From positions 372,001-436,000 of the forward strand of contig JAJTWR010000377.1 of assembly GCA_021613335.1 (NCBI GenBank): a DNA stretch of 64,000 nt, in the 5' to 3' direction. The position numbers were made by a program, and so were the translations under genes. Shown piece after piece: positions 8,350-57,556 of this stretch. How positions within the stretch are numbered: the first letter of the stretch is position 1; each line of letters starts with the position of its first letter. The notes under the pieces are model-generated. The model was not told the DNA's origin, ran no database searches, and worked only from the letters and a program-made list of their open reading frames with translations. The DNA is from Whitmania pigra (Eukaryota > Annelida > Clitellata > Hirudinida > Haemopidae).

Positions 8350-9110
8350 ATTATTTACAGAAGGTGTGACCACGTATGCGAGGTAACAAGAAATCCGTTG
8401 TTTTGGTGGAAACTTGGAGGCATTGGTCTGGGACTATTTGTAATTGCCAATTTTCACTCCGTGACACGAATCTGTCGACAGCAGTTTGTAAGGAAGAGCT
8501 GTGAGAAGGTGATGATGTTGAGTAGAGCTTGATGTCATCTGCGAATAGTTTGTATTTGACAGAGTTGCCTCTAAATGCGTCCATAACATCGTTTATTTTA
8601 ATAAGAAAAAACGTAGGATCCAGCACTCTTCCCTTGAGTTAGAGTTAGTTCCCACTGTTAGATAATTGGCCATTGATCTTGGCAGCTTGAATTCTATTTG
8701 CTAGAAACCTATTTTATTCACAAAAATAGGTTGCCTGAAATTCCATAAGCCCGAAGTTTCGTCAGTAATTTTAGGTGAGGCACTGAATCAAAAGCTTTTT
8801 TGAAATCGAAATATACAATATCAGTGCCCTGATAGAGTTGCATTGAAATTGACCAGTCATTAGTACGCTCAATCAGAGTTGTACATGCTGACCTCAAATT
8901 CAAGAAACCATGTTGCTCTGGAGATATAAGTTTGTTTGCCTGAAGGTAATTCAGGATGTCTTTATTGATCACCTGATCCATTCCACGACAACAAGAAGAT
9001 GTCAGTGAACAAGAAATATTGGTCTGTAATTCCCTGTATCAGATGCAAATACTTTTTTGTAGATTGGAATGATGTAAGAGGAGGGATACCAGGGATATCT
9101 CATGCATGAA
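8350..9110 (-). mobile_element. Decayed LINE reverse-transcriptase fragment
   Basis: Minus-strand reading, in order: NYRPI (frame broken soon after), ISPEQHGF, VYFDFKKAFDSVPH and YKLFADDIKLYS. These are the ordered blocks of non-LTR reverse transcriptases, including the catalytic-site FADD motif. Stops and frame changes occur between blocks (about 8980-9010 and 8625-8720), the usual QGSVLGP block is corrupted, and 5' and 3' parts are missing. It lies inside the gap between the fucolectin-like exon and the PAN-like ORF. Clade not assigned; motif wording is Jockey/CR1-like. Confidence 0.88.
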
Positions 9111-10922: not shown

Positions 10923-21440
<10,518 letters not shown>

Positions 21441-23646: not shown

Positions 23647-25598
<1,952 letters not shown>

Positions 25599-28500
25599 TC
25601 ATGAATATGTATTTCCCATATTTACACTGGAATTATTGGAGACATTATCCGATTCGCTTAGAAGGTGCAGGTAAGTCCTGTCAACTGACGTCATCGGAAT
25701 GTGCAAATATGAACCGTTGTTCACTTTTAAACTCTCCAGGTGAAGACTTCCATCTTTTAAGGCTGAGTTTTCCAATTCGTTTGAATTTGTATTCCTCGAT
25801 TGTCCACAAAGTTCCCGTTGGTATGCATCCGATACTAAATCAAGGTAGATGTCGTCTATCATTTCGTATGGTTGGACGTAAGTAGACCTCTTGCTGTTGC
25901 TAAAATGTTGTAAGTTTTTTATTTCATCAGATTGATAATAATAATAATAATAATAATAAAATTGTTGTAGCTCACGAAAATAAACCTTTTTACTAAAAGA
26001 AACCAATTTACTGCAACAGATGCTAACCTTAGTTTTGAATCGACTTCGTCATCCTCGATTTTCTTAAGCAAAGTATTATGGTTCAGTTTGGTGTAAGCTT
26101 CGACATTTAAACTAAATTCCAGAATTTCTTCATCAGGGTTGATCTCGTCGTACAAAGAATTGGCTTCCCTCAAATGATAAGGAACAGATTTCCCTCTGAC
26201 TGGGGCTCTGGAGTTTTGGAAATCTGAGAGATATCATAAAATGAAAAAAAGCGGATATAAATTTTAGGTTTCTATGATTTCAGAAATCCTTTAGGTAATT
26301 GTAAATGTTGTTATTTGCTAGTTATTATTTGCAAAATATTTTAAATATGGTTATTATTGATTTTTATTTTTATTAATATTAGACAATGTTATTTTAATGA
26401 AGTATAATCAAATATTCACTTCTCGCGCGTTTGTTCATTTGAAAGTAGCAGAATGAGAAGATGAAGACTACGAAGAGCAACGTGGCGATCAAAACTCCGA
26501 CGATTATTAATGCTGTTCCATCCAATAATTCATTCTTATGTTCCCCTAAGTTAAAACTTGTTAACTTAAAATTATTTTAATTTATTTTAATACACCTTAT
26601 TATAGGCTAATAAAATTTATTTTAATGTATTAAATCTATTTTATTAATTTTAAATACATTCTCTCAATGTCTATCAATTTAAATATATTCTATTTTAACC
26701 TAGTTTTTGACAATATTAGTTTCAAGTTGTTCATCAATTTCCATGCTGAAAAACAAAATCATATTTCAAAACACTTTGATTTTGATGAAATAAATTACAA
26801 TAATTTAATATTGGATAGCAAATTAGAATTACATTCATAACTCGTTTCGGAATAATAATGATTAATTTGATTAAAATTCATTTGATCAGACTTTATAATA
26901 AATGTTTTTAGAAGTACTAACCATTTACTACTTCACCTGTCTTTATGGCCGTTTGAGAAGTTTTATAGAAGGCTTCTGTTAATTAACAGATTAACAAATT
27001 GAATGTTAGTTTAAACATTAAATTAAACGATAATTTAAAAATTTAATTAATTAATTAAGATTAAATAACAAATTAAATAATACTTCACCTGTCTTTATGG
27101 CCGTTTGAGAAGTTTTATAGAATGCTTCTGTTAAATAACAGATTAACAAATTGAATATTAGTTTAAGCATTAAATGAAACGATAATTTCAGTATTTAATT
27201 AATTAATTAAGATTAAATAACAAATTAAATAATAGAATAAATGTTGGATTCTAGCAGAATTCAAATTTTAACAAAATCAAATATTCGATAATTCTATTTC
27301 AATTGGATCACCTACCTTTGACGGGAACCAATACCAATGGAAAGTGGATTTCATAAACAAGTACCTCAGAAAGTATCGTACCATTTTCAAAGTCGTCAAT
27401 CTGAGACGGGAAACTTATAGTGAGACTAACTTTGACCATTTCAAAGTCGTCAAAAGTTACGTTAAAGTCAAAGCTGCTCAGGAAACTTTGACTCAATGTC
27501 TTGCTGCCGTAGTTTGTAGTTGGTGATGTTGTTCCAATCAGGGAAATGCGAAAATTGTGGACGAGATGGCCTGAGTAGTTCGAAGAGCAATGAACCGTGA
27601 CTGTCGTTCCGTTTGAGATTGACCTGATGTCGATATCGAAAGAGCTGTTGATGTAGTCAGAGTTGGAATAAATGACAGTTTCCTCGTTATTCTCCTTTGT
27701 AACAAGACGACAAATTGGTTCCTCTTCTGAGATAAATGTTAAGTGAAACACGTTTAATGAACACTGGTTGTACTTCAAATATTAAATTTAATTAATATCT
27801 AAGTATTATCTTTAATACATTACGAAATTCGATTTAGTCCAAATTATACGAATAAAATTGTACTACTGTAATACATATTATTATAACCATAAGAATTTTA
27901 CTGATCTTCGAAACAAGACAAAAGAAACAGAACGCTAGAATGAATTTTGAGTTCTAAAAGTCGTTGAACAGATTGCTCATTGGAAAAACAGCCATTCTGT
28001 GAGAAAGAGCTCTCATATCAATAAGGCTTAGCAACATCCTAATTAATGATTGTATGAGAGGTCCAAAAGTGCCACAGAAGGTCATCGAAGAAAGTTACCA
28101 TATGTTGACATAATAAGTGACATGATGTCATCACTATGATAACTGAATGGAAGATTGCTACCCAGATTATTGTAAATTTTGAAGTGCATTTAGAGGATTT
28201 TTCAAAACAAAACTAAAAATGGAGCTCAGAACATGAAACAAATTTATCACTCACCCATGATTACAAGCTCAGACGAGAATCTCTTCTGATCGGGAACAAA
28301 CTTGAGGCACTCGTAAGTACCAGCAGGAACGAGAGAAGCATTTGTGCTTTTAACAATACATCCCATCACTCCGTCAAGTTCCGGAAGAATCTCAAATATG
28401 CTTTGGTAGTTGGGATTAGTGTTGGTACAAGATGCTAGAATAGTTCTGCGTTTGTCAAAAGGCTTGACGAACCAGGAGAACTTTGGCAGCGTCGAGGCAT

Positions 28501-28618
28501 TTGATTGCTCTGCCGCTGAGGATTTAAGGACGTCGATGTTATTGTTGAACTCAGCCTCATCGCAAGTCAGCACAATGTTTTCTCCTCTCTTGATGACTTT
28601 GCTGACCATGTTCAAACC
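25599..28618 (-). CDS. Ig-domain transmembrane receptor with ITAM-bearing tail (5' end not found)
   Basis: Minus-strand exons: 28618-28255 (Ig-like 1: VLTC ... FSWFV ... AGTYEC), 27726-27316 (membrane-proximal Ig-like region with VTVHC and several N-glycosylation sites), 27127-27089 and 26975-26937 (duplicated 13-residue stalk exon), 26545-26420 (transmembrane helix ALIIVGVLIATLLFVVFIF, then NKRAR), 26223-26028 and 25887-25599 (tail). All joints are phase 1 until the last (phase 2). The tail holds YDEI...YTKL, then YEMIDDIYLDL, then YLHI-x8-YLHL at 25662-25709, a consensus ITAM. Such motifs, once phosphorylated by Src kinases, recruit Syk/ZAP-type tandem-SH2 kinases. No signal-peptide exon was found upstream. 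Confidence 0.72.
26930..27233 (-). repeat. 152 bp tandem duplication carrying a 39 nt stalk exon
   Basis: Units 26930-27081 and 27082-27233 are nearly identical and each includes exon, acceptor, donor and flanking intron. The exon is 39 nt with phase 1 at both ends, so both copies can be spliced in without a frame change. Confidence 0.88.
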
Positions 28619-28629
28619 TGATGAAGTAA

Positions 28630-28860
28630 TTATTGTTACTATTAGTCTCAAAAATTTATTATTAATATTAGTCTCAATTATTATTACTATTAGTCTCAGT
28701 TATTATTAATATTAGTCTCAATTATTATTACTATTAGTTTCAGTTATTATTACGATTAGTCTCAATTATTATTACTATTAGTCTCAATTATTATTACAAT
28801 TAGTCTCAATTGTTATTACTATTATTCTCACTTATTATTATTATGAGTCTCAATTAAGCT
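28630..28860. repeat. Tandem repeat, about 27 bp unit (ATTAGTCTCAATTATTATTA)
   Basis: About eight units with small changes, directly upstream (minus-strand sense) of the first Ig exon acceptor. Confidence 0.8.
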
Positions 28861-29324
28861 AAGCCGCTATTTTTTTTTGTTTCTTTATATTTGTAATTTA
28901 TTTGATAGATTCATTCGAATCCGAGTATTAATAGAAATAATTATGATGAATATTATTTATAATATTAATAACAATAACTTTTTTAGTCAGTAATTTTATT
29001 ACTATCCAAATGGATATGATTTCAAGTTTGACTTATTATTTAATCCTCCAATCTTGATAGAGCCATAATACACATTAGTACTATAAATTAGTTTTATTAT
29101 TAAAACAATTATTACTCAGTACATTACTGAGGGGGTCTGTAGCAGACTAAGAAACTATTTTCGGAGTTTTCGCTATTCTTGTTTGGGTTGGTAATTATCT
29201 TGTTGTCTTGTATCAAAATAAAGCTAAATATTTCTGTTGCTTATGAAGTTGAGTTTATAAAATAAAGTATTTATAAAGTAAGAGGTTTATTACATGACCC
29301 AATTCCATTAGCCTCTCCCTTCAG
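28861..29324. other. No gene seen
   Basis: AT-rich spacer upstream of the Ig receptor exons; its missing signal-peptide exon could lie here or further up but was not recognised. Confidence 0.4.
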
Positions 29325-29672: not shown

Positions 29673-30898
29673 TAAGCATATCAAATGGGAATAACGTAAT
29701 GATGAACAATGGATTAAGGTGTTGATGATGATGGTGATGTATATGACGTTGATGGTGATGACGAGGATGTCGACGATGATGCCGATAGTTTGTCTGTCTG
29801 TTAAACCTTTTGAAGTAAAATTGATAAAAATATAAAAACAAAGAGAAACACCACGTAATAATTTCGTGAATTAACAAAAATAAATTAATGAACGACAAAT
29901 TCGAAATCTAGAGATTAACAATTATAAACAGGGTTGGAGTTAGACTTCAATTAATTTTTAGCAACGCTTTGAGTTTAGTCAACGCACCTTGATGGACAAA
30001 AATGAAAAAGGCCAAAGTTATCCACAGAAGGTACATTTTAAGATTCAAAAACAAGTTCGGAACATCCTAGCCATAGTTAAAAGTTATAAGTTAAAAATAA
30101 ACAAGTTATTTAAAAATTATTTCGGCGAATTAAACAAAAAATTTAATATCATACCCTTGCGATCGAAAAAACTAATACTTTCTCTAACGCATTATTCGTT
30201 TCTGAAAGTAGGAAGAACCAATAACTATTGTATATAATTGCACATCCTGTTTTTCATGGGCGCTGCAGAAGACAAGTGATTACGAATAATAATAATAAGG
30301 TTTAGTTTCGTATGAAATACGTACACATTAAAATTGTGCTAGATGCTAAAGCTAGAATAGTTACGAGACTGTCGTTACTTTGAGACTATTGAATTAAATA
30401 TAAAATAGTAACGTATAATAAATATTTAATTTATTTGAAATTATTTAATTTAAGGTAAAATAGTCAAAATCATGGCAATGAAGTTTATGTGGAAAATATT
30501 TACCTATTTTAGCCTCTATTCACCAAGTTCTTTTGGAGTTATTCCATACCAAATAACTTTTTTTTGTATAATTATTTCACCAAAAACTCAAACATTCTAA
30601 ATGTCTCTGACTTCAAGCAAAGGCACTTTAGTATTTTTTTCGCTTTTATTATAACACCAATTAGTTTGCAAAATGATAATTAGAGCGAAAGGTACTTCAA
30701 AACTTCGTGCAATCAGAATTACATTAACTACTGGTTAGTTTGTTTTAACTAACGTTAACTATCCAATAAAAATCAACTTATTACATGACTTCTAATATGT
30801 GAAATATGTGAAAAATAAAACCAAGATTGTCTTTAGCAAAAGTTTCAATAGACACAGCACGATTGAAAACACTTGAAATACTTTACTTACTTTAAAAA
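29673..30898. other. No supported gene
   Basis: Contains a GATGATG-rich patch (29720-29780) and an 82-codon plus frame (29989-30237) that is Lys/Asn-rich with no family signature. Confidence 0.4.
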
Positions 30899-31096
30899 AT
30901 GCTTACAATTAATAAATTGTATCAAGATATTGGTAACTTTATCAGTTCGGCAGCGGAAAATTACAGCAGTTATCGAGATAGTTTTCAAGAACAGGTTCTA
31001 GGTAAGTTACTCCGGCTCCTAGACTCGAAATGGCAACTCTTGGAATTGGCACAGGCTGCAAGATACTGTACGTATTGGACCTGGAATTTAAAATAA
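30899..31096 (+). pseudogene. Possible methyltransferase-like exon remnant (competing with a receptor tail exon on the other strand)
   Basis: On +, from the ATG at 30899 the frame reads IGNFISSAAENYSSYRDSFQ then EQVLGKLLRLLDSK. A one-base shift then gives ATLGIGTGCKILYVLDLE, whose GxGTG looks like the SAM-binding loop of a class I methyltransferase. That suggests a frame-shifted remnant. The same DNA on - could be the last tail exon of the receptor cassette at 31206-32008 (acceptor CCAG after 31087). I cannot decide between them. Confidence 0.25.
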
Positions 31097-31205: not shown

Positions 31206-32008
31206 ATTATCTGAGACTGACCCTGCTTTTGGACTCGTAAGCTTTTGGCTTTGGTCCTTCGTGCTTTCATCTAAAGTCGCATAACCTTCCTCTGATTTGA
31301 AGACAGACAGCTCTTCGTCTGGATTTATCTCGCCATAAAACGATGAAAACCTACTGAGATCCGGCTTTTCAGCGCCATCGTTAGTATTTTGGCTGGTTAC
31401 ATCTGTCCTGTCTGGGTAGCTGCAAAGGAAAGTAGCATGTGAACTGAATGTCATTTTACAAAAAAAAAAAAAGGTTTTAAATTAGTTAATCTAGTAATAA
31501 AATTACGGTTATTAAGAAATGTAAAACGCTGACTAATCCTAATTATATTATCCGACAGTATTGCGGAGGTTTTAAACCAAAATAATTTTTTTTTGCCTCA
31601 GAAAATTTGTTTAAACTATTTCTAATAAATTCTATTATACTCTAATGATTACAACATCAATAATATTATTGGCATTCTTAAATACAATTAATTTACTAAT
31701 AAAACAAAATAAAATAAAGTTAAATAAGAAAATCAGAAAATGTAGATTAATTTTATTATGATAAAAAATAAATTACTTCTTATTTTTGTGGTTATCTTGA
31801 AATAGATGAAGGCAAAGGCAACGATTATCAACACCGGCAAAATGAGTGTTGTCACGATAACGATTATAATTGTTTGATCCAATCCCGCCTTTGACGAAGC
31901 TGCTTGTTGGTAATAAAAATTAATAAATTAATAAAAATATTAATGAAATTTGTATTTATGAATTAACCAGTAAAACAGAATACTAACCGCCAGTTAAGCT
32001 GAGGTCCT
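31206..32008 (-). pseudogene. Paralogous receptor membrane/tail cassette without a visible ectodomain
   Basis: Exons on -: 32008-31988 (21 nt stalk), 31902-31777 (helix TIIIVIVTTLILPVLIIVAF, then YFKITTKIR) and 31411-31206 (tail). The membrane exon is 126 nt, exactly as long as that of the receptor at 25599-28618, with the same phases. The tail FYGEINPDEELSVFKSEEGY plus ATL matches YDEINPDEEILEFSLNVEAY plus TKL of that gene. No Ig exon lies between 32008 and the FAM76 gene at 34357, so this is a partial duplicate unless its ectodomain is too diverged for me to see. Confidence 0.6.
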
Positions 32009-34356: not shown

Positions 34357-36945
34357 ATGGAGGCGTTATTTGCCTGTGCGAATTGTCACGCCAGACATCC
34401 TTTTGAGGAGTTGAGCGCGGCCGAACAGTTTTGTAAAGTTAGTTTGCGATTTTTATTGTTGATATGCTTGGCTATGGATCATATACTGAAGTTGAATTAA
34501 ATGCTAATGATTTGTTTCTAAGGCGTGCCAAAAACATGGCGACACTGTGCGATGTATTTATTGTCGGGTGGAGTTCCAATCAGACGAGTAAGGCGATATT
34601 AAGAAAACATTTTATTGTTTTGTATTCATTATTAGTTAATCTCAAAGATCTAAATATTATTTTATTCTAAAAACTACTTAACTTATTTGTTAATGTGTTG
34701 TGCTTGTTCAATTATTATTAATTTATATTAATTTACTGGTTCAGTTTTTTAATTCCTTCTGCAAACTGTTCTTGCAGCAAAAATGGTTTGAGTTCTCTGT
34801 GCAAAAATTGCAGCCACTGCTTAAAAACTTATGGAAAGGTATTTTTTGTTTCCATTTTAAGTGATATTCTGCTAACAAAACTCGATATTGTAAAATACCT
34901 AAATGATACTCTCGTTACGTGGTCGATTATCGTTCAAATATTATTTAAACAATTTTTAATCGCATTTCAAGCCAAAAACTTGTGAATACTGCAAGGAGAT
35001 TGCAGCCTTTGTGGGCAAAAAGTGCCAGAGATGTTCGCATCAGGAAAAGAAGTACGGGCCTCCGAAGCACTGCGTCAGGTGCAAGAACGTGTGCGCGTTC
35101 GACCGCGGCGAGGAATACAGGAACACGGTGGGTGTCGACTTTGCGACTTTCCTCGAATAAATGATTCCGTTTTAGTCAAATTTATTAGTTATTAAAATAA
35201 TCATTGATGAGCCAAGATTAACTTAAGATAATTGTTAAATGTTAGTCAATACTTTTATCTGGAGAATGTACGGTTTATGTAATTTGAAATAAAAATCTAT
35301 AAAAATTTCATTAAGCTCGATTATCGCACCATTGATGACGGTGCCGTCTCGACCGGATGTCTAAATAAGTTCATCTCGGATAAAACTGCACATTATCTTC
35401 GATCGTCGAACATTGCAAAACAACTTAGTTCATCAAACAACAACAACAATGATGATGATGATGATGATGATTCAGATGGAAGGCAAGATGTTGTGTTGGC
35501 TTTGCATCGTCGCCTACAAAAGAGCTAACAAGAAGCAACAGAAGATGGAATCTTTAACCAATAGCAGCCTCTCTCGATTCTCTCCCCACACCAACAACAC
35601 TTCTACCCCAATTCTACTCGGGGCAGACAAGAAAACCCTCAAAGACGTGCCACTCTCTGCCAATGGTACGCCAAACATGGCCAAGGACGGCGACACCATG
35701 GAATCCAAGTTTTCTGATTCACTAAGGTGGGACGTGTCGTGGATAATTAACAAATTAATCAATAAATTATATTTTATATGATTTTTTATATTGTAACAAT
35801 ATCTCATAGCAATGTCATTAAATTACTGACTCTACATTTGGATACAATGCTAATACATCAGGTGGATTTAGAGCCTTTCAGAAAATAATCTATTAAGACC
35901 TACATTCTTATTGCTCAAACGCATAATTTGAATAATCAGATGCCTTAGTTCAAATGATTTCAAACTAAAGTTCAAATGGGTTCAAACTAAAGTTCAAATG
36001 GGTTCAAAATAAACAATATCTCAGGTCAAGGGAAGACCTGTTCAGAAGTTCATCTCCACTGAAAAGAAAGCTCGACAGGAATTCATCGAGTTCGAAAAAG
36101 TAAACTGCTCGTCCGTTTGATGATTTTATTTTACCATTATTTATTTACACATTACTAAGAAACAAAATTATTATTATTATTTATCATACATGTATATCCT
36201 AAATTCAAGAAACTCGAGACGACAAATGATCGCATTCGATAAAACCTACACGACAACGGCATGACTTAAAAATAACATTTGGACATTTTCGAACAACAGA
36301 AGTCGCTTCGAGTTTGACTTGGAAAGTGGTGAACATCTCACCACCATTACCCAACTGAGGGAGGAGATTGAATGCTTTAGGAGACAACTCAACAACAAGG
36401 ATCAAGTCATACTTCAGAAGGAGCAGAAGGTCATTATCATTATTACTACTATTATTATAATTACTATTATTATTATTAGATTTTGAATTAAAATTCTTTA
36501 AATGTTCTGTGAAGAAGAAATTCGACTCTTTTTCAATAGATAAATCCCACAAATTTCTTACGCGAGCACGACAGGGCAATCTCATTTGAATATTAATCGC
36601 CTTTCTCCTCCAGATTACCGAGCTGAAGGCTCAGTTGTTCGAGCTGGACAAGGAAACGAGACTTAAGATCAACCAAGTGCAGAAGCAGAACGATGAAATC
36701 ATCGACAGTCTTCAGGTGGCGTTGCGATAAGTTTTCGACACGTAATGACATCGTAACGTGTTTTCGATACGTAGCCACCTCATAAGCCTTTCTCAGGACG
36801 CTTGTATTTTCCCCTGAATCAATAATGTTCAGCTTCAATGTCCGGTAAACCTGACTTACGTATTCATTTCCAGACGAAAATCAGAGAGCTCCAGAAGGTT
36901 GTTAACTCGACGGCCAACAGGAATCCGAAGAAGTCTTCGAAGTGA
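34357..36945 (+). CDS. FAM76: FAM76 family zinc-binding/coiled-coil protein
   Basis: Nine exons: 34357-34437, 34523-34587, 34778-34838, 34972-35127, 35476-35726, 36025-36099, 36300-36429, 36614-36715, 36874-36945 (330 aa, phases consistent). The N-terminus has paired CxxC motifs in the FAM76 order: ACANCHARHPFEEL, RCIYC, LCKNCSHC, CEYC, KCQRCSHQEKKYGPP and MLCWLCIVAYKR. The middle is Ser/Thr/Asn-rich with a basic patch (PLKRKLDR). The C-terminal half is heptad-like (TQLREEIECFRRQL ... ITELKAQLFELDKE), a coiled coil as in FAM76A/B. The vertebrate proteins are nuclear-speckle proteins linked to RNA/NF-kB regulation. The long poly-His tract of FAM76B is absent. Confidence 0.93.
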
Positions 36946-37394
36946 AACGATCCCACCGTTCTTGTAAACTAATTTCGCTTCACGGACCATCGAAGCCTGT
37001 GCTAACCCGAGACGATTCGCGTCGAGAACGACTAAAACAGATCAGTGTTAGGGAGGAGCTAAACTAATTAAACATTCACGTTGACAATACTAAAACGGAC
37101 TAATTAGGGAAGAGCTAACTCTTGTTTGCTAGAGTGCATTTGTTGGAGTTCAGACAATTTTTGTACCTATTGGGAGGCTTTTTCTACTCTGAATTTGACA
37201 AAACTCTTCTTGTGTTCTGTAGGCTTATCATGTTTGGGGCTCTCTTTGGTAAACTAATCAGTTTTTTGATTTATGCTCGTCCGTTTTGCATATTCGTTGC
37301 CATCACGTTTTATCTCTCTTTTGTGGTTCGGCCTATTGCTGCGGTCTATTCGTGATTTTATGTGTCTTTGTGAGCGGATCTACCGTCGATCTTG

Positions 37395-37400
37395 AATAAA
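37395..37400 (+). terminator. FAM76 poly(A) signal AATAAA
   Basis: About 450 bases after the FAM76 stop; the first clear plus-strand AATAAA. A 77-codon frame between (37122-37355) is 3' UTR noise. Confidence 0.55.
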
Positions 37401-37428
37401 AGTTTCCAAAGTGTTAAATTTGAAAGAT

Positions 37429-37434
37429 TTTATT
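37429..37434 (-). terminator. OXSM poly(A) signal
   Basis: TTTATT on + is AATAAA on -, about 110 bases beyond the OXSM stop and only 30 bases from the FAM76 signal. Confidence 0.5.
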
Positions 37435-37542
37435 GGAAGATTCGATACAAAGTAATGCTTTCCATGTCAACGGCTGTGCGAAAAGGACCCGACATGATGA
37501 GTACTGATGCTCGAGAGGAAGAAAATGTTGCCAAAGAACCAA

Positions 37543-39667
37543 TTAACTCACGAATTGTCCGACGCAGAGGGAGGCATTAGTTCCCCCGAATCCGAACGAG
37601 TTCGTCACGGCAATTCGCCTCTCGACGGGAGATTCCCACTTCCTGGCAGAGTTCCGAACAAAATCGAGTTCGACTCCGAGAGAAGTTGCGTCGTGGAGGT
37701 TCAAGGACGGCGGAAAAATGCCGTCCCTGCAGGCCAGCATGGCAAAAGCCGTTTCGACCGAGCCCGCACCGCCGAGCATGTGACCCAGGGCACCCTTGGT
37801 GGATGAAACTGCAGGGCCGGATGGAAGGGTTCCAGATGAAGACATTGTTGCTCCTTGTTTGAGATCGTTCGATGTTTCACTTTGGCTAACAAAAGTCCTG
37901 TAAATGGCTTGAGCTTCTGCTTTGTCACCCAAAGGGGTTGATGTCGCGTGAGCGTTGACGTAGCCCACCTGAGCTGGGTCGATGCCAGCATCTCTTAGCG
38001 ATGAGGTCATGCATCGTTGGGCTCCCTCGCCGTTCGGAGAAGGTGCGGTAATGTGGCAAGCGTCCGAAGAGAGTCCATAGCCCAGTACCTCTGCCAGCGG
38101 CTCAACCCCTCTTTTGATGGCACTTTCGAGGCTTTCCAGAACCACAATGCATGCTCCTGGTTGGAGATGATCAAAGAAATGAATTAAATTCAGAAAGTTG
38201 AAGTCTTACTAACCAAAAAAGATTTAAAACGATTCTAAAATTAACAAGATGAATGAAGGATTCAGTTGGCAGCATGGAAATAAAAACATCATGAAATATA
38301 ATTGTTAAATACAAAGAGGGACTTAATACTAAATTCAATGATTACACAATGAGTGATGTGCACATATCTCTTAATAATGACAGAATGATGCAAGTGGTTT
38401 TGAAGTCATGACATTTCCTGGCAACAGTCAATCAATTTAATCAATCGATTGTCAGAGAAAAACCTCTAAAAATAATCAATAAATAATAATAATAATAATA
38501 AATAAAAATAATCACAATATGCCAGCTTCCAGGAAACAAAACAAAAACCTAAAGATTCACAACAACCCAACCACCGCTTTCACAAACTTCAAAAACAATC
38601 CCGAAGATCGAACCTTCCGACATGACAAATCCATCCCTAAGACTGTCAAAAGGTCTGGAGGACTCCAGGGGCTTGTCATTGAAGGCCGTGCTCAGGGCCC
38701 TGAGTCTAGAGAAACCAGCCAATGACAGAGGATCGATGCAGGATTCCGTACTTCCGCAGACGGCGATGTCGATGTCTCCGTGCTGGATGAAACGAGACGC
38801 ATCTCCGATGGAATGAAGACCGGAGGTGCAAGCCGTTGCCACAGCGTGGTTGAGTCCCTGAGTCGATCATTCCACCTCTTAACAACCAGGACATTGACAA
38901 AAAACAACAGCAATAGTAATAAGATGGTAATTTCGGCCTGACTTTTATCCCGAACTGCATGCTGACGAGACCTGCTGCCATGTTCGACAGTATCTTCGGA
39001 ACAAAGTGAGGACTGACTTTGTTGTAACCCACTTCAAACTTCTCGACAATGTCTTTAACCTCGTCCAAAGAGACCATGCTCATGCCAATCACAACTCCTG
39101 TGCAAGCATTTTTACTTTTTTGTATAGTACAGCACCTGAAAGTAACATATGTTCAAGTTGGTGGAAGCCTAACCTAAGGCTTGCAACGACAAGCATGATA
39201 AATAAATGATTTACCCCTCTACAATCATTAAACGAATTGGAAGCTAACCAGTCCTCATTTGAGTTTCAATGCTGTTGAAATCCAGCTTTGCCTGGGTAAT
39301 GGCTTCATTTGCAGCAGTCAAAGCAAAAAGAGACCCACGGGAGCTGGATCTCAAATCCACTTTGAACTTCATTGAATTCAAATTAAATTCTCCAGGACCA
39401 TTCCCTCTTCTGACGAAACCGGCCACTTTAGACGGTATGCTTGCATATTCTGAATCGATCAGAGTTTACATAAAAAGAACTATGTTTCTGAATGATATTT
39501 CCAGATATAAACACTTCAAATCAGTAACCTTGGCCCTCCAGAGCTGCTAATCCACATTTTCCTTCTATGAGTCTCTCCCATACCAAAGGGGTTCCAACAC
39601 CTAAACACGTCACCAATCCAATCCCAGTGGCTACCACCCTCCTCCTGTTAGCCAGACTAGCAGACAT
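37543..39667 (-). CDS. OXSM: Mitochondrial 3-oxoacyl-[ACP] synthase (beta-ketoacyl synthase II)
   Basis: Five exons, minus strand: 39667-39529, 39449-39249, 39097-38943, 38857-38614, 38156-37543 (450 aa, close to the human protein). It condenses malonyl-ACP with acyl-ACP in mitochondrial fatty-acid synthesis, the pathway feeding lipoate. Key blocks are [34 protein letters not shown], the nucleophile Cys175 in [11 protein letters not shown], His316 in [11 protein letters not shown], and Lys367/His372 in [24 protein letters not shown] ends the fold. The start is the ATG at 39667; only about ten residues precede the conserved core, so a mitochondrial leader is short or encoded upstream. A Ser/Thr-rich insert of about 20 residues follows TFV before the 367/372 motif. 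Confidence 0.95.
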
Positions 39668-39965
39668 TGTCAACAAAAAAAATATGCGATCCCCGATCGA
39701 AGAACACCGACAACCAAAGAAATCGCAAATTCTAATTTTACTAAATTGTCTAGAAAAATATTTAACAACTTATTTATTTAATTTTTTACTTCATATAAAC
39801 AATAAATGAAGAATTTTAACTTTTCTTTTAAAGTGTACCTGATCACAACAAGAGCCTTGGATCTATCGTATCGATGAAATAGGAGTTTAGCAGATTCACG
39901 ATAAAGATGTGCTACTGATGATATAAAAACTGCATTGATATTGAATACTATAACTAGACTTAATC
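39668..39965. promoter_or_regulatory. Bidirectional promoter region between OXSM and TDG
   Basis: Only 298 bases separate the two start codons, which face away from each other. No TATA box is clear for either gene, so a shared housekeeping promoter is likely (inference). Confidence 0.55.
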
Positions 39966-42216
39966 ATGCCAAAAATTAAGCAAGAACTTATTACAAACTT
40001 GTTGCCAGTGAAGAAGAAGAGGGATAGGTTTAATGGTAAAACCGAGGAAGAAGTATTAGAAATGACTCTTCCAGACCATTTGGTTCCCGGATTAGATTTA
40101 ATTATTGTGCGTTTAAATTTATTTTAAATTTTGTGCTAAGAGAAATTACAATATATGGTTTAATTTCTCAGATAGGCATTAATCCTGGCTTAACAGCTGC
40201 TTATATTGGTCACCATTATGCTGGTCCTGGGAACCACTTTTGTATGTTCTTGTCACGCAATTATCTTTTATATGAAATATTATTTTCATTCAAATGAACT
40301 TTCAGGGAAGTGTCTATATCTCAGTGGTCTGATACCAGAACCTATGAATGCTTACGATGATGCGAAACTCAAAGAATTTGGCATTGGTTTTACCAACATT
40401 GTTTCTCGTACTTCAAGAGGCAGCTCAGATTTGACGAGGTCCATTTTCTGTCTATTTTATATTACTGATTTTAAAAAATGTTTTAGGAATCCACTGTGAA
40501 ATTAAATGCTTGCAAAAAGTCAGACAATTAAAAGTCTTAAATTATAAAACTCTTTAGGAAAGAAATTAAAGAGGGGGCTGAAATTCTCCTTGAAAAGATC
40601 AAAACATATCAACCAAAAATTGCTGTCTTCAATGGAAAAGGTGATTATAGTCGTAGGAGTTGTTCATTTAATGGAAGCATGGAACATAAACACTTTTTTG
40701 AAGCCTGGAATTTTTTCTTGTCATTTACTAATCATCCCCTGTCGATAAAGGGGCAGTTTTTCATTTTCTTGAATTATATTAATATTGTTAAAATAAAAAA
40801 TCATCAGTAATAAAAATAATAATTAATTAATTAACTGATTAATTTTTTTACAAAAAACCTGATTTCTTCAAGTTTACTCATTCGAACATTTTCATTTGTT
40901 TAAATAAACAGGAATCTATGAGGTATTTTGTGGCCACAAGAATTTCTTCATTGGAAAACAGCCGGAACCATTTCCTGGAACAAACACGGTCAGCATCTCT
41001 AATGATAATTATTAATAACATTAATAATAATAGTAATAGCAGTAATAATTTAATTTATAATGGTAATAATAATAATAATATCCAATTTATAAGATACCAT
41101 TGCAGGCATAACCACATTCGATTGTAATAATTCGTTAATAACACTAAAAGCCAAAATAATAAAACATAATTCCACTTCATCTTCAGGCAGTCTTTGTCAT
41201 GCCATCTTCCAGTGCCAGATGCTCTCAGCTACCAAGGGCTGTTGACAAGATTCCTTTCTACTCGGCCTTAAAGAAACTCAGGGACCACTTGAGAGGGGAC
41301 GCACCTCACGTCCAAGAGTCGGAATTGGTCTTTCCAGATCTCGATCTGAAGGTCGAGCCCAAGAAGGAAAAACTGGAAAGGGAAGATGCGGAATCATCTC
41401 CGGTAAATCCGACGACTCCCGTGAAAAGGGGCCGGAAGAGGAAAGTGAAATCTTTGGACGAGGGTCCCTCGGATGGTCGAGACGGGACCAATGCAGAGGC
41501 CCCGGTTCCATGCCCACTGTCGAATGTCATTGTCAAGGACGAACCGTTGGATGGTAATTTGGCTTGACCAATTTTCATATTTATTCGAGCTTTGTTATCG
41601 AGATTATGGTTATGGTTAAGTATGTGGATACATAATAATGTTTGGACAATGATAAGTTTTATTTTATGCACGAGTTTATTATTACTATTATTAATATTAT
41701 TGTTGATGTTGTTTTTCAAGAGGATTCTATTGTTATTGTTGTACTACTAAAATTATCTTATTATTATTGTTATTATTGTTTTAAGTTGGGGCTGTAATCA
41801 ATCATTGCACATTTATCTTTGAGAAGTAAATGATTTTAAAATTAAATTATAGAAAATATTAGCATTATACTAAATATAAATAATAAAGTAATGTAGTAAC
41901 TAAGGCTGCTGAATTCTCAGATGGCCCGTCAGGATTGCAATCTCACTGGATGTACACAAGAGGCACTGATTTCAACTACTCTGGCCATCCAGTCATCAAG
42001 CAGGAACCAAACATGGAGGATCAAACATCATCTTATCCTAGTCTGCCTCTCATGGATTTTTCAGGTCTTGACAACCAGCCATTGGCTGCACCATCATCAT
42101 CTTCATCATCCTTCCATGCTAGCCATGGTGCAGCCATATCCCCGTACTTTAATTGGGGTGGAATGAGTTACAGTCTCTCAGGGACCGGAATGACTTATCG
42201 TCATGACAACCAGTGA
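39966..42216 (+). CDS. TDG: G/T mismatch-specific thymine-DNA glycosylase
   Basis: Seven exons: 39966-40106, 40172-40241, 40306-40438, 40558-40640, 40912-40988, 41187-41553, 41921-42216 (388 aa, phases consistent). The core is [20 protein letters not shown], then [20 protein letters not shown] with catalytic Asn51, [27 protein letters not shown] and the DNA-intercalation loop [14 protein letters not shown] (from residue 173). It removes T or U opposite G and oxidised methylcytosines, starting base-excision repair in the nucleus. The C-terminal extension is Lys/Glu- and Ser-rich with VKDEP and IKQEP, which fit the SUMO-attachment pattern; vertebrate TDG is also SUMOylated near its C-terminus. 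The N-terminus is much shorter than in vertebrates. Confidence 0.95.
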
Positions 42217-42830
42217 AGGATGTCTGTGAAATTGTGCGAACAATTTTTTTGTGTGGAACGTAGTTTCTGTAGTTTTTGTTAAGTATGGTAATATCTTTGT
42301 CGCATTTGCGAAGATTTAAACTTGTTATAAAGCAATTGATTATTATTTTATTTTTTGGTAATTTGCAGATGTCCTTTTGTAGTCAAGCTATTTGATCGTG
42401 TTGCTATACTTGGTTTTTGAAGTGCTATTCGTCCCGCAATAAAAAAAATTGTCCGTTCGATGTTTCAGCTTTTGCTTCCACTTAGTATTCGAAGCGACTG
42501 GCACATTGGGATTTTCGTCGTTTCTAATATTACTAAAATGTAAATTTGTAATTAAGTCTAAAGATTTGGAGATCGAGAAGAAAAATAATAATGAAACAAT
42601 ATTTGCAAACGTTTAATTTTTATGTGCAGTTTTTATTAAATTACTATTTTTAAAAATTTCTAATATATAAAAAATTACACAATTATCATTAGTCTTACCT
42701 AACTAAAACAAAAAGTTAATGAACGAAATTGGTTACGTTTATTTATGGTTTTCCATTGTTTATTTCTCTTGTCGTTTTGTGATCGGCTCGCAGCATCATT
42801 AGTTTTTCTATTTTGACAAAAAATTAAGTT
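42217..42830. other. TDG 3' UTR and KIN17 5' flank
   Basis: AATAAA at 42438-42443 is a good TDG poly(A) signal. The rest is AT-rich up to the KIN17 start; no other gene. Confidence 0.6.
42438..42443 (+). terminator. TDG poly(A) signal AATAAA
   Basis: About 220 bases after the TDG stop, in an A-rich run. Confidence 0.55.
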
Positions 42831-44537
42831 ATGGGTAAAGAAAAGGCAGGATTCTTGACACCGAAAGCCATCAGCAACCGAATCAAAGCGAAAGGACTTC
42901 AAAAGCTGAGATGGTACTGTCAGATGTGTCAAAAACAGTGCAGGGACGAGAATGGTTTCAAGTGTCATACGATGAGTGAATCCCATCAGAGGCAGCTACT
43001 TCTCGTGGCCGACAATCCTCACAAATTCGTGGACACATTTTCATATGACTTTAACGATTCCTTTATAAACTTGCTGAGCAGAAGGTTTGGCACGAAACGA
43101 GTTCATTGCAACGTAGTCTATCAGGAATACATCGCTGATAGAAACCACACTCACATGAACAGTACGCGATGGCTGTCCCTCACTGAGTACGTCAAGTGGC
43201 TCGGACGAAAGGGCATATGTACCGTAGACGAAACTGAAAAGGGTTGGTTCGTCCAATACATAGACAGGAGTCCCGAGGCAATCATGAGGCAGCAGGACCG
43301 AGAGGATTTCGAAAAGGCCAAAATGATGGAATTGGAGATGGAAGAGAAGAGAATAAAACGAATGGTCGAAAGAGGGGCGAAGGAGTATGAAAAGATAAAG
43401 AAACAACAGGAGGAGGCAGATCCTAAGCTTTGGGAGTTGAACAGGTCTGAAGAAGATGAAAAGGTCGTCTTCAAGGTGCCCGCAGTTCCAAAGACCAAGA
43501 TTGACCCGACCAAGGTTCAAGAGAATGTCCTGCTCAAGGCAGCCCAGCAGAAGAGGGAGGAAGAGATGAATAAACTGGAGACATCCAGCAGAGCCAGTTC
43601 CAAATTGTCCGAGAGCACCAAACGCAAACTCTCGGCACTCGAAGAAATCAGACTGGTTGGAATAAGAGGATATATAATATATGACATATTGTTTTAATAT
43701 TATTTATACAACTTATAATGTAAAATATATTTATTTTATATTCTTTATTAGATATTCAGATTAACCACGTGATATAATTTTCAGCTGGATGAGAAGAAAA
43801 AAGCCAGGTCGGAGAGAAGGGACCATTGGATTGTCGATGGGATCGTAGTCAAAGTTGTGACAAAAAAGGCAGGAGAAGAATTCTACAACAAGAAGGGCGT
43901 CATACTAGAAGTGAAAAACAAGTACGAAGCAGTCGTCTGCCTCATCGACGGCAACGACGAGGTCACTCTTCACCAGTCGGATCTAAGGACGGTTCTACCT
44001 GCCATAGGTAAGGAAAATCTATTACGACCAAAATTTTATTATTATTTCTATTTTATTTTCATTATATTTTGAAATTATTACATCATGTCATGTTGTCCAA
44101 TTAATTTAAAATCATCTTATTATTATTTTCATTATTATTATTTTTGCTATTGTTCAACCAAGTTACAAGTTTATTTATAATGTGATTTTAAGTATTACAT
44201 GATCCTTTAACGTAATACTTAGGCAAGCACGTGCTGCTGGTCAATGGTCCATACAGAGGTTGTAAAGCAACGTTAAAGTCGATTGAAGAAGATAAATTTT
44301 CTTGCACAATTTGCTTAGAATCAGTGAGTTCTTATTATTATTAATATTATTGTTGTTATAAATATTATTCATCAGTTAATTAATAAATTTTACTATAACT
44401 TTGTTTAGCTATTACTTTTGTATTAGCTTATTTTCTTAATTTGTTTCACATGTTTGTTATTAATTTGTTTACAGGGAAATTCCAAGGGGAAGATCGTAAG
44501 CAACATCGACTACGAAGACGTCTGCAAAATTTTCTGA
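42831..44537 (+). CDS. KIN: DNA/RNA-binding protein KIN17
   Basis: Four exons: 42831-43655, 43785-44007, 44223-44323, 44475-44537 (403 aa; human about 393). The start MGKEKAGFLTPKAISNRIKA is nearly invariant in the family. A C2H2 zinc finger follows (C30, C33, H46, H52: WYCQMCQKQC ... CHTMSESH), then the winged-helix region with TRWLSLTEYVKWLGRKGIC and a charged helix rich in Lys/Glu. The C-terminal tandem SH3-like (KOW-type) domain covers the last three exons (DHWIVDGIVVKVVTKKAGEE, then HVLLVNGPYRGCKATL and SNIDYEDVCKIF). It acts in the nucleus in DNA replication/repair and RNA processing. Exon 1 alone encodes two thirds of the protein. Confidence 0.96.
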
Positions 44538-44593
44538 TGCCCTTTGAGACATTCTGTGACTTGAGCAAACAGTTTTTAATATACGTTTGTGTA

Positions 44594-44599
44594 AATAAA
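44594..44599 (+). terminator. KIN17 poly(A) signal AATAAA
   Basis: About 57 bases after the stop; another AATAAA lies at 44784-44789. Confidence 0.45.
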
Positions 44600-45013
44600 T
44601 ATTTTATAATTGATTTAAATTTTCTTTTTGAACAAAAGCACTTCTAGTAAATTTATTTAAGCTTCAAAAGTGCTTACAAGATTAAAACAGTTTTTAAGAT
44701 GTCAAAGCTGGGAGATCAGTGTTAAATGTTCAAGTATTTGAATAAGTTGATTGAAATCAAGCATTGTTGCCATCACATTTGGTAATAAACATTTTTAACT
44801 TAAATCTAATTTGCTTCAAAGTTGTTTGCAAAACCATGTCATAGGACCTCGACCACAAAACAATCACGTGCACCACTTAAAAGTGCACAATAATTGATTG
44901 ATTAATATTAACAACTTTATAAATATCTAACTCAAAGTTTTCTGCAAAAGCAGGACAATATTAATCTTGTTCAAAACTAAATGTTCAGCAGTTTCCTTGT
45001 TGAGTTTGAAAAA
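44600..45013. other. Intergenic between convergent genes
   Basis: Holds the KIN17 3' end and the 3' flank of the mesothelin-like gene; nothing else seen. Confidence 0.45.
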
Positions 45014-48000
45014 TCAGAATTCCCTCAGTACCACTGCCAAAAATGCCAGAACCAAAACCAAAGCATTGCTTCCCAGCCTTTCACCTATTCAATTAAAATT
45101 ATTTAGTAAATAGTCAATAAATAGTTACATAATGCTTCTTATACTTTTAATATTTGATTTGTCAAGGCCAGGATTACAGATCATATTACACATGGTATAA
45201 CAACTTTCTAAAGTTCATTTTTATTATTCATTTATTTATTTTTTATTTATTAAGCATCAAACTGAAGGGTCTTTGAGACCATTAACACAAGTCTATACAA
45301 TTTACATATAAAAATTATTATATTTAATATTATTAATATATTTAATTTTAAAATTTATATTTAATATATTATTATATTTAATATTATAACAAAAAATGTA
45401 AACATTTTTAATTTGAAAAATTGATAAATAAACATTTAACCTATTCCACTGTCTCCAGTTAGAGAAAGTGCAATTTCTGATTTTATCGAAGACAATTTGT
45501 CTTCTATGATTTTCTTCTTGTTGGCATCAAGTGATTTCAGCTGACTGCTGGTAATTCTAGCAGCTTGATCCAGGCTCAGCTGCTGTAGCTGCTCTGCTGT
45601 GAATCCCTGGGAATGGTTGATAAATTAATAATGATAATTTCTTTATTATTAATTATGAATTCGGGCACTTTGTTTTCTTGGGAAGAGACATTTTGGGTTG
45701 TAATAAAACTTAATAAATAAGCAAATGTTAAATCGGCTGATAACCCAATCGTTAAATTAATTATAACTTTATTGTTATTAATTATGGGGCATCTTTATTT
45801 GAAATTATAATTAAAATAAAATATAGCATATTTGAATGAATATCATGAATGATATTTACGTAACACTGACATTGAATTGCATTGGTGAAATGAATGGAAT
45901 TGAAGAGGGGCTTATGAATCTCAACTGCTCATTGGACAGTTTGCTCAGGTCATCCTTTGTCAAGCCCCCTGAAATGAAAACTCTGATTGGCCAATCGATC
46001 CGATTTGATTTGATTAAAATAACTGAGCAGTAAAATAATGTGTGCATTAGGAGTTGTTCATAAAGTACGACACGAATTAGAAAATTTAAAAAAATAAATA
46101 AATGATAAAATTCAAAAATTTTATATTTGTTATGTTAAATAAATGTTAAATTTTTAATATGCTGATTCTATATAATATTTGGGAATGAAGCTAAGAAAAT
46201 CGCGATTAGCTTTGTTTCAGACAGATCGCTAATGGCCCAGTATTTCAAACATTGGAGAAAGGTAATTTGTATACATCATCGTATAATGCTTATATTAAAG
46301 TATACATACCCAGGAGTAAACAGGATTATCAAAAAGAAGTTAATGAGATATGGACTAAAATCAAGTCTGATGCTACTTTATAACTGCATTTGAGAAAGTG
46401 GGGAGAGTGTCTGAGGTTTGTGACAGAGTGTGACATGGGGATTTAAAATGGTCCAAAATAGCGTGACATACTCTCTGAACGACCCCTTAAGAATTAAATA
46501 GATTTACTGAAATCATTAATGATCGTATTGAATTCCCACTACATAATTCCAAACTACATTTTGTTAAGTTATAAAAGATTGTAAATCGTGATTGATACAA
46601 GTTCAATCGCAAACCAATCAGACTGCCAAGGGCGTAAATGTTGCTAGGGGTCCAAGAAGAAGGCGAAGGCCCGAGACACGAGGGATCCTTGACCGCCTTC
46701 AGGAACTCTGCCATCTGATTTTCAGCACATTCCTCAAGCTGTCCGATATTTTGGAAGGATTCGCTATTGAAGTTAAATTTAAAAGAATGTATTTTTAAAA
46801 CACCGCCAAACACAACCGAAAGTATTGTAAAAATTGGCCATTGATCTATGAATTAACAATTAACATCCCACTGTTTTATTATTAATGGGTTGCATTACAA
46901 TAAAATATTAATTTATTATTATATATAAAATACAATCCAGTATTAATTATTAATATTTTATTTTTATTATCATATTGAATTACATTGTCGGTTTTTACAA
47001 TTGTTTTACAAATGTTTTACCAATGTGTTAAATAAACTCTCAACAAAGCAATTGAACCATAAATTCTTGAATCTCAAAACTAAATTTTCCAGAACTTCTT
47101 TATACTCACCAAACAACCATAAAAGGAATAGTAGAAATGTCGATCACAATGGCACCGCAGATGACCTCACCCATTGACCTCAGCTGGGGTGACCTTAAAA
47201 AGGTCAGATTGTTTTTCAATAGGTTTTTCTTGACGCTCCCAAAGGCAGACGACAACTGAACGTAAACATTGAAAAATTACTCATTATTAATTACAAAGTT
47301 TTGATTCATGATTTACTTTATTTGATAATGCGATGGGAATGCATTTCGAAAATACATGGCGGTAATGTAAATTAATTTAATTGTTGCTGCACATAAAATT
47401 AATCAAAAAATAATATTATGAGTAGTAGCAATCACATTAGATGGGCGGATTGATGGATGGACGAACGGACAGATAGATAGATGGATGGATGGATAGATAC
47501 GTGGATGTATCGAAGAGTGGGTAGATTGATGAAATGATGGATGGATGAAAGATCATTGGAGTGTGACGCTTCAAAGACAAGCTCCTGACCTTAAAAAAAA
47601 AACCAATTCGAAAAACAAAACAGCCACCTTCTCATCATTCCACAGTCCGTTCCTCCCGATGGCACTGATGGCCTCAACTTGATCCAAAACCAAACTGGAA
47701 ATCTCAGCTGGAGAAAGACCGCTGATTATTCCAGCTGAACTTGTGATGATGTCGGCTGTCCATTTGCCAGGATCGCTGCCATAAGCCTGGGTTGTTGTTT
47801 TATTTTAATATTATTACTGTCATGATTATAAATATATGTCGTAAATATAAATTAAGGCAATTAAAACAAATAATAAATCACGTAAATAACACTAATTTGT
47901 TATTCAATAGCATTGTTAATAACTTAATAATTAATGTTAAAATAACATCAGACGTAAGAGGTACAACTCATACGTTCTTTGCCAAAATAGCAAGGGCATT

Positions 48001-51000
48001 CCACTGGCTCTCATTGAATCCGTCCACTCGGCCCAAAATGTCGACGCAATTGACAAAGTCCTCTTTCGACATCGTTCCAAGTTGAGACGCCGTCAGCTCA
48101 ACCACGTTTCTGGACATCTGGTAGATCAAGGGACATGTCACTTTGGAGGCTGAAACAAATTATGATCAACAACAGTTATTATTAAATTATATTATGCAAA
48201 CTGTTTAAGTGTTAGTAGAATTATTTAAAAGCGGTATATTGTTTTGAATGATATTTTATGAAAGTTGTTAAGTAGTTAGATTTAGTTGACAAATAAATTT
48301 TCACAACCATCCAAAGTCATACAAATTATTAAGCAATTACAGCGACAAGACATCAAAATGCGGATTCTTAAATCATGCAAACATTTGCAAATGCAGATAC
48401 AAAACAAACAAAATAACAGAATCACATCCAAACATTCCCATCAGAAAACTGTAAAAAAAAGCCAAAAATACCAGCTTGTCTCTTTCTCCTTGTTACTGAC
48501 GCAAGTCCATTGCACTCTGTCGAAGCTTCGACTGCCATCAGCCTTTGGTACGTCATCATCCTAGGGCACATTTCCAGAGCCTTGAAGCCTGCCGAAACCC
48601 TTTCTTCCGAGATTGCATCCCATTTCTCGTATAAGCCGCTCAATATGGGCAGGAAGCCACAGAGAAATTTCTGTTGGATGGTTATGAAGATGTGATTTTA
48701 TTTATTGGTAAGCTTTTGAAGGGATGAGTGATGAAAATGTCTTTTGTGTATTTTACGATATTACATGAATAAATTAATACGTTCAATTACTAATAAATGT
48801 TGATTTAACAATTTTGCCAAAAGTTTTGAAAAATACGACCTTCGGAATTTTATTGAACTCCTCGTCTGACATCTGATCAATCAAGGAACCGAGTTGTGCG
48901 ACATCATTGGCGTTTGTGAAACTTTAAGAATAACGCTTAATTTGTACTTGTAATTAATTAATTTTTTACTGTCATTATGTAAATATTCAATATGGTCACA
49001 GTTATTAGTCAATGTTATCGTCGCCATCATCATCATCATTTTCCAACTTGAGATTTTTGGCGCAATTGTAGACGGCGTTCCTGGCCCGGCAGTTGATGAC
49101 GTCAGCCTGGAGAACGTCAACGTCAAAGAGGAACTCTTCGCACGTCACGTTCAACTGGAAGAAGTTTTCCACGGCGATGGAAAGGAAGAGACTGCTGTCC
49201 TCACCGGTGCACGTCAAACTCCTCAGTGATGCGTTGTTCTGGAAAAGTGGAATGTAAAGTTTAGTTCTGGTTGCGGTTTTGCTGTGATTGTAATTTTTCA
49301 ATATGTATTATCTTTTCGTTGTTGCTGATATTGTTGTTGCTGGAATTGTTTCATTTGTTTGTTTTATTTTTTAGGTTAAAAAAAAACTAAATCTCACAAT
49401 TACTGTTGAAGAAAAAGGTAGCCCAAGTTAATTGCAATATGATTATAAATTACCTTAAGCATTACGTCGATTTTACAATAAAAGTTAATGTAGTGGTTAA
49501 ATTATTACAAATGTCAAAAATCTCAACATTTGTAATGCATTATTAAAGCTATTATTTCCTCACTCTCAAACAAAACTCCATCTTCTCTCTGATCACAGCA
49601 GCCGGAATGTTTCCCGGCATTTCACAGGCCATCTTTTCACAAATCCGTCTGATTGACAAGGAGCTTTTCAGTAGTTCCAAAGTGCTGATTCTATAAAGAT
49701 TGGAACCAACAATCAATCATTCACTAAGTGGTCTGCAATATTTGGAGAATATGTATACACACTTATGGGCAATATTATTTTACTATATTGTTTATTGATA
49801 AAATTTACCATATTATAATTAACTAAAATGTAAATATTGATGATTAATAGTATTTTAATAATGTATTTAATACTTGAGTTTAGGAAGAAAGGCAATAAGC
49901 CTGGGAGACAAGAGAATATCCGGTCTCTTATTGGCTAAACTCTCAATGACGTCAACGATTAATTTTGTCTGTAAAAGCAACGACAATTAGCGCGATCGAA
50001 TCAATTTCACATATTAATGTAATTTATGAATAAAAAATGAATAACTATAACTTTTTAACAACAACAACAAATATATTTAATATACATATAAAGTTAATAT
50101 ATTAACATTTTTATGTATAGTTATATTAGGCAGTTTTATATTTATAAGTGTAAACATTACTAATAGTTATAATCTAGTGGACTCAGTCACTCAATCACTC
50201 AATCAAAGACTTGTTAATAATAACTTAATCATCGCCATAAATGTAATAATAAAAAATGGAGCAAAGTCTCAAAATGCCCTTACCACGGAATCAGATATCC
50301 ATGCAGCTTCTGGACAAATTTCCATTAAGCATAGCTGCAGAACCAGTTTGGCATCAATAGAACGAAGCTCATCTGGGGTCATGAACCCTGCTGGCAAGGT
50401 CAACATAGATTTGCAATGGTCAACAAAGCTGGATGAACATTGGTCAAATATAGTGGACACCTTGTTTGAAAGAAAAATTCGAACAGTTTTAATACAATAT
50501 TGTAAAACATAGTAGAAGATTAATCTAATAGTATTGCATTATTTATTTAATCATGTTAATATTACTTTAATAATTATTCTTACAGTAATAAGTATTTTTT
50601 TAGTAACATGTAATAATAGTAATTATTATTGCAGTTGTAATAATTGCAATTGTAATTTTAATTATACAATGACAACTATAATAAAATTACATTCATCACC
50701 ATCACAATCTGACAACATTAATTGTAACAATAATAATTTATTTGAACCAAGGTGGGATCAGTCCCCAGGTATACTCCTTTGTCCAAAATGATTCCACAAG
50801 CGTCATTTTTCATGTCCTTGATATCTTTCACTGTCAAGAGTTGTTTTACCAACAGAAAGTCCATCTGATCTTCTGATATTTGGCTTCCATTTAGCATCTG
50901 AATTTATGTAATTTAATTTTTTCTTAAAATCTTGCATTTTTATTAATTTTAGATGATGTCCATTATTATTTTTATTATTATTAAAAAAAATTGTTAGTTG

Positions 51001-57517: not shown

Positions 57518-57556
<39 letters not shown>

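Follow-up and report, generated by a model that had tools for sequence, protein, structure and literature searches.

A candidate single-pass leech receptor with one V-like Ig domain and an ITAM-form string in its tyrosine-rich tail

A gene on the minus strand of a 64,000-nucleotide stretch of the Whitmania pigra genome (the window) encodes a predicted single-pass surface receptor of this leech, whose distal pair of tail tyrosines would act as an ITAM for Syk or Shark, a reading that we regard as evenly poised between right and wrong. An earlier note on this DNA had described a single-chain Ig receptor with its own ITAM; of this description, the single-pass protein, one Ig-like exon, the tyrosine-rich tail and the ITAM-form string are retained, and the second 'Ig' exon is not.

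Structure of the receptor gene

Reading of splice sites and phases gives six exons encoding 481 amino acids in 1,446 coding bases, with a single terminal stop (Table 1). AG and GT are found at every junction, the phases agree throughout, and the coding bases contain neither stop nor frameshift. The layout consists of a signal peptide, a V-like Ig exon, a second ectodomain exon that is unclassified, a membrane helix followed by a basic stop, and a tail of 172 residues. The donor of the membrane-helix exon, GTGAAT, is not a strong consensus site.

Both 39-base stalk exons can be included in frame, extending the protein to 494 or 507 amino acids. The stalk exon is contained in a 152-base tandem duplication (window 26926-27229), the copies of which are 94% identical with nine differences, and the duplication is judged from its sequence to be fresh. 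A separate 22-base tandem repeat (TTATTATTACTATTAGTCTCAA type; window 28612-28900) lies immediately upstream of the Ig exon acceptor.

Table 1. Features of the receptor gene and of its tandem tail copy, paralog A (positions in the window)
Feature	Position	Strand	Details
Exon 1: start codon ATG and signal peptide MYLLWITLAFFIFVHQ, hydrophobic run	29988..30036	-	donor GTGCGT; ends in phase 1; in-frame join to Ig exon
Exon 2: Ig-like (V-like) domain, predicted, 121 aa, phase 1-1	28255..28617	-	C19, W49, AGTYEC104
Exon 3: second extracellular domain, unclassified, phase 1-1	27316..27726	-	five N-glycosylation sequons; Pfam: none at E<=1
Optional 39-nt stalk exon 1 (EAFYKTSQTAIKT), phase 1-1	27089..27127	-	AG/GT sites, in frame
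Optional 39-nt stalk exon 2, copy of stalk exon 1	26937..26975	-	in frame; differs at 1 of 39 nt, synonymous
Exon 4: membrane helix and basic stop-transfer QMNKRAR	26420..26545	-	hydropathy 3.2, residues 286-304
Exon 5: proximal tail, YDEI(NPDEE)-x15-YTKL	26028..26223	-	tyrosine pair also in paralog A
Exon 6: distal tail, YVQP, YEMI, YLDL, ITAM-form string, stop codon	25599..25899	-	translation
ITAM-form string YLHI-PMTSVDRT-YLHL	25662..25709	-	translation; tyrosines 446 and 458 of 481
Paralog A, 21-nt exon that may encode a stalk (EDLSLTG)	31988..32008	-	scan of region
Paralog A, membrane-helix exon	31777..31899	-	phases as in main gene
Paralog A, proximal tail, YGEINPDEE-x14-YATL	31222..31411	-	aligned with main gene
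Paralog A, last exon: YSIL, YLEP, YLDN, no ITAM	30942..31080	-	translation

The ectodomain

Exon 2 shows the hallmarks of a V-type Ig domain, with a B-strand cysteine (Cys 19), a C-strand tryptophan (Trp 49) and a strand-F AGTYEC motif ending in Cys 104. When the exon was shuffled, the hallmark pattern recurred in 0 of 300,000 sequences in its strict form and in 106 of 300,000 in its loose form, figures that are too favourable because the patterns were chosen after the sequence had been read. Profile and structure searches add no recognised family: Pfam yielded none with either of exons 2 and 3 as query (E<=1) or with the full-length protein (E<=10), and a PDB sequence search with the protein returned no chain at E<=10 except saporin (E 0.077), which was taken as a chance match. 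A single-sequence AlphaFold2 model of exon 2 alone reached a pLDDT of 37.1. Among I-set profile matches in the genome (E<=1e-8; 150 of 824 candidates scored), none of the 146 listed lies on the contig of the receptor (C345). A nanobody in the PDB aligned to the ectodomain around the V-domain tryptophan (E 1.5), a match at chance level that was not counted as evidence.

Exon 3 carries five N-glycosylation sequons and two cysteines, and tryptophan is absent. It does not fit the Ig hallmark pattern and cannot be called Ig; its best PDB match (E 0.22) is at chance level. The sequons suggest that this domain may be glycosylated. Of the 'Ig-like exons' claimed earlier, exon 2 thus has the hallmarks, whereas exon 3 lacks the tryptophan and falls outside the pattern, and Pfam recognises neither. 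The term 'Ig-type' is applied here, with moderate confidence, to one domain, the predicted V-like domain of exon 2.

The ITAM-form string and the tyrosine-rich tail

Only when read on the minus strand do the 48 bases running from 25709 down to 25662 encode YLHIPMTSVDRTYLHL; on the plus strand at this place one frame has stops, and another is open across 25598-25885 without encoding the string. The earlier note was correct in placing YLHI-x8-YLHL in the last exon (25899-25599), where the spacing is exactly 8 and complies with the ITAM rule of two Yxx[L/I] motifs 6-12 residues apart, and in placing a membrane helix with a basic stop-transfer sequence before it. There is one such helix, at residues 286-304 with a mean hydropathy of 3.2, followed by QMNKRAR, and from this predicted topology the string would sit in the cytoplasmic tail.

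Ten tyrosines are found in the 172-residue tail, six of them in Yxx[L/I], compared with a mean of 1.49 such sites in shuffled tails (P 0.000875, 200,000 shuffles; P 0.00055 with tyrosines fixed, 40,000 shuffles). The exact ITAM form is less distinctive. Yxx[LI]x(6-12)Yxx[LI] arises in 6.9% of 200,000 tail shuffles, in 7.0% with tyrosines fixed and in 3.1% for x6-8, and the window holds 18 ITAM-form strings including that of the receptor (17 others) per 118,762 six-frame residues, low-complexity strings having been dropped. Given the shuffle rate and the 17 other strings, the ITAM string taken alone does not exceed what chance would produce. Sites of phosphotyrosine type are over-represented in the tail as a whole, but their exact ITAM spacing may be fortuitous. 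Many ITAMs carry an acidic residue shortly before the first tyrosine, as an extended consensus. In the leech string none of the three residues preceding the first tyrosine (NNGSY) is acidic, and the context of the second is VDRTY.

Paralog A and the search for relatives

Upstream of the receptor gene lies a tandem copy of its tail, paralog A (31899-30942), which is 28% identical to it and has matching intron phases. The core common to the two genes is YxEINPDEE...YxxL, with a spacing of 15 in the main gene and 14 in paralog A, and the tail of paralog A is without any ITAM-form string. Upstream of paralog A, a scan limited to exons that are of phase 1-1, 18-500 bases long and preceded by a pyrimidine-rich acceptor found no ectodomain exon, the only two candidates of at least 90 bases both being of low complexity; as the scan used found none, paralog A may be a truncated copy.

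Relatives beyond this copy were sought in two ways. In a protein database, a word-based search of limited reach found no homolog at E<=10, whether the query was the whole protein (7,114 word-sharing candidates) or the tail alone (291 candidates). In the 178-Mb assembly of 381 contigs, all six matches of the main protein at E<=10 were the gene's own exons, and of the 11 matches of the paralog A tail, three were its own exons and significant, with the other eight at E 0.14-7.7. Both genome searches missed the shared proximal exon of the other gene, and their reach is therefore short. The earlier note had let its proposal depend on the tyrosines being conserved in relatives: the sole relative found, tandem paralog A, is without the ITAM, and no ortholog was found, so that this objection holds by half.

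The assembly contains COX1 matches on four contigs (C49, C115, C360 and C47), all four without an internal stop. Inspection by eye suggests that the proteins of C115 and C49 are bacterial, and on C360 the G+C content reaches 60% over a stretch, compared with 28-36% in the window; the bacterial-looking COX1 contigs would represent either associated bacteria or contamination.

Kinases and SH2 proteins in the genome

On contig C61 a kinase domain, assembled by eye from exon pieces, matches ZAP-70 at 300 bits and SYK at 290 bits. Other families score at most 216 bits among the best 60 of 273 matches, with the exception of an EGFR chain with two kinase copies, which reaches 185 bits per copy and 371 bits in sum. 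The domain is 74% identical to ZAP-70 over 47 residues and contains KWYAPEC. Approximately 5.5 kb upstream on the same strand there is a single SH2 match, covering positions 1-47 of the model, with one stop inside the stretch. A Shark-type kinase on contig C274 (L011) shows the Pfam order SH2-Ank-SH2-PK_Tyr on exon-sized frames. With a Syk/ZAP-70-like kinase and a Shark kinase both present, it is likely that ITAM readers exist in this genome. Src-like SH2-kinase loci, named by eye, are also found, together with loci that we take, by eye, to be SHP-like, PI3K p85-like, PLC-gamma-like and RasGAP-like SH2 loci.

In a paper on CARD-CC/Bcl10/MALT1 evolution, invertebrate Syk is linked to ITAM receptors and annelids are among the Bcl10-bearing groups (PMC5978004), which implies Syk in annelids; the same paper describes ITAM-dependent signals mediated by Shark (PMC5978004).

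Neighbouring genes in the window

Downstream of the receptor, on the minus strand, lies a sodium:neurotransmitter symporter exon (PF00209, 21003-21470), a gene that by eye appears to continue to about 11325, and a reverse-transcriptase fragment (PF00078) is found at 8718-9038, also on the minus strand. Between these positions and on the same strand, a 393-codon open frame (16700-17881) has a SAP domain match of 22.3 bits, compared with a Pfam cut-off of 23.9. It is flanked by two identical 50-aa minus-strand frames (16468-16620 and 18001-18153), and because of these flanking copies looks like an inserted element (16468-18153).

On the other side, the region 34960-43697 holds FAM76 and KIN17 on the plus strand and a beta-ketoacyl synthase on the minus strand. 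Among the 120 of 4,068 matches listed for the KIN17 exon (42834-43697), the best-scoring named match is the leech Helobdella robusta (60% over 95%), which points to a leech as host, and three unnamed proteins score higher, at 100, 89 and 68%. Most other named matches among those listed are at 53-59%, including the annelids Lamellibrachia and Ridgeia at 55-56%, and several reach 61-74% over a shorter stretch, such as Rhopilema at 74% over 57%.

A large short-repeat gene, apparently in two very similar tandem copies, occupies 44000-64000 on the minus strand; its frame 45436-45624 recurs, slightly changed, at 59438-59632. By eye we take it to be mesothelin/otoancorin-like, and Pfam gave no match above cut-off in the three pieces tried. 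Rfam found no match in the window.

Comparison with known receptors

FcgammaRIIA and CEACAM3 of mammals are single-chain Ig receptors with an ITAM in the tail, as in the leech candidate, which differs in that it matches no PDB chain at E<=10 except the chance match to saporin (E 0.077). The Drosophila receptor Draper differs from the leech receptor in its ectodomain, which consists of EMI/EGF-like repeats and not Ig domains. The likeness to the Draper/Shark system lies in invertebrate ITAM-dependent signalling through Shark (PMC5978004), a kinase type also present in the leech genome.

Another close system is CgIgIT2 of the Pacific oyster, likewise a single-chain lophotrochozoan Ig-type surface receptor with its own ITAM (PMC11999971). 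It has five Ig domains, a transmembrane segment and a classic ITAM and is reported to signal through ERK (PMC11999971), compared with one V-like domain in the leech gene; the comparison is one of descriptions. Oyster C-type lectins with hemITAMs are reported to associate with Syk (PMC13027682).

A further review describes Hydractinia candidates with ITAM/ITIM motifs and the Botryllus FcoR family with ITIM/hemITAM motifs (PMC12065747). The fester co-receptors (FcoR) of Botryllus resemble the leech protein as V-type Ig receptors with long tails that contain Yxx[I/L/V] and a hemITAM or ITIM, and in having alternatively spliced exons between the transmembrane segment and the Ig region; they differ in having V-Ig, sushi and two C2-Ig domains, 53 loci, and a hemITAM or ITIM instead of a full ITAM. 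The Hydractinia Alr family is reported to have 41 members, compared with one gene and one partial tandem copy here. No sequence homology to the Alr, CgIgIT2 or FcoR families was found at E<=10 in the word-based search of limited reach, the only comparison made with them.

Discussion

If the leech gene is expressed as modelled, the V-like Ig domain and the second, possibly glycosylated, domain would engage a ligand or an adjacent cell from the end of a variable stalk, and clustering of the receptor would lead a Src-family kinase to phosphorylate the tyrosine-rich tail. The Y446/Y458 pair would then serve as an ITAM to which Syk or Shark binds through its tandem SH2 domains, and Src-family or other SH2 proteins would be recruited by the proximal YxEI together with the other Yxx[L/I] and YxxP sites. 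Such a receptor may serve an immune or phagocytic use. The open and phased gene model, the second copy of the tail, the density of Yxx[L/I], the spacing of 8, the Ig hallmarks and the kinases in the genome all argue for an ITAM receptor; the chance rate of 6.9%, the absence of the string from paralog A, the missing upstream acidic residue, and the searches that found no homolog at E<=10 and no Pfam Ig match argue against it.

The main rival is a tail built for multi-site phosphotyrosine docking in which the ITAM spacing is accidental and the sites act singly, through Src-family, Grb2/Crk or SHP-type SH2 domains, so that signalling might do without Syk and might even be inhibitory. We consider this a substantial possibility, well short of even. 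Paralog A favours it, in that the pair common to both genes is YxEINPDEE...YxxL, with a spacing of 14-15 that lies beyond the ITAM range, and the frequency of ITAM-form strings in shuffled tails and the SHP-, PI3K p85-, PLC-gamma- and RasGAP-like loci (named by eye) point the same way. So do the resemblance of YxEI in both tails to the Src SH2 preference pYEEI and that of YVQP (main gene) and YLEP (paralog A) to Crk-type YxxP. What speaks against accidental spacing is that the two ITAM halves, YLHI and YLHL, resemble each other more closely than do any others among the six sites, and that a spacing of 8 is typical of ITAMs.

The six sites fit the YxxPhi sorting rule and ITAM halves equally, so that they could serve mainly as endocytic sorting signals for AP-2 rather than in kinase docking; this is improbable, six such signals being judged unusual and the acidic YxEINPDEE context common to paralog A being more like an SH2 site. 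It is very improbable that the model joins exons of different genes or that the gene is a decaying relic, as the missing homologs (at E<=10 in the protein database and elsewhere in the genome), the paralog A ectodomain exon not found by the scan used and the GTGAAT donor might suggest, since 1,446 coding bases run without stop or frameshift in agreeing phases and these phases are repeated in a second, diverged tail copy.

A fuller version of the ITAM receptor reading, which we regard as doubtful, is that of an annelid-lineage orphan receptor that gained a working ITAM of its own in a genome with Syk and Shark. Its stalk would be varied by fresh 39-nt exon duplicates and its tandem tail copy would carry different motifs, the two genes forming a small activating/other pair independent of the cnidarian, tunicate and mollusc receptors.

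The rarity implied earlier is not supported, as oyster CgIgIT2, the Hydractinia Alr candidates and Botryllus FcoR have already been reported, and from these review reports invertebrate single-chain Ig receptors with such motifs are known. Nor would the leech gene by itself bear on the origin of Syk/ZAP signalling, as had been proposed, because both Syk and receptors with ITAMs have been described before from other invertebrates. In the literature surveyed, of which the coverage was partial with few subscription papers, no annelid single-chain Ig-type ITAM receptor is named. The leech protein is a plausible lineage-specific member of a known receptor type and, if its ITAM works, would represent the single-chain Ig-type ITAM receptors in annelids. 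Taken with the oyster, cnidarian and tunicate cases, it would then support the view that Ig receptors have gained ITAM tails repeatedly and easily wherever Syk or Shark is present.
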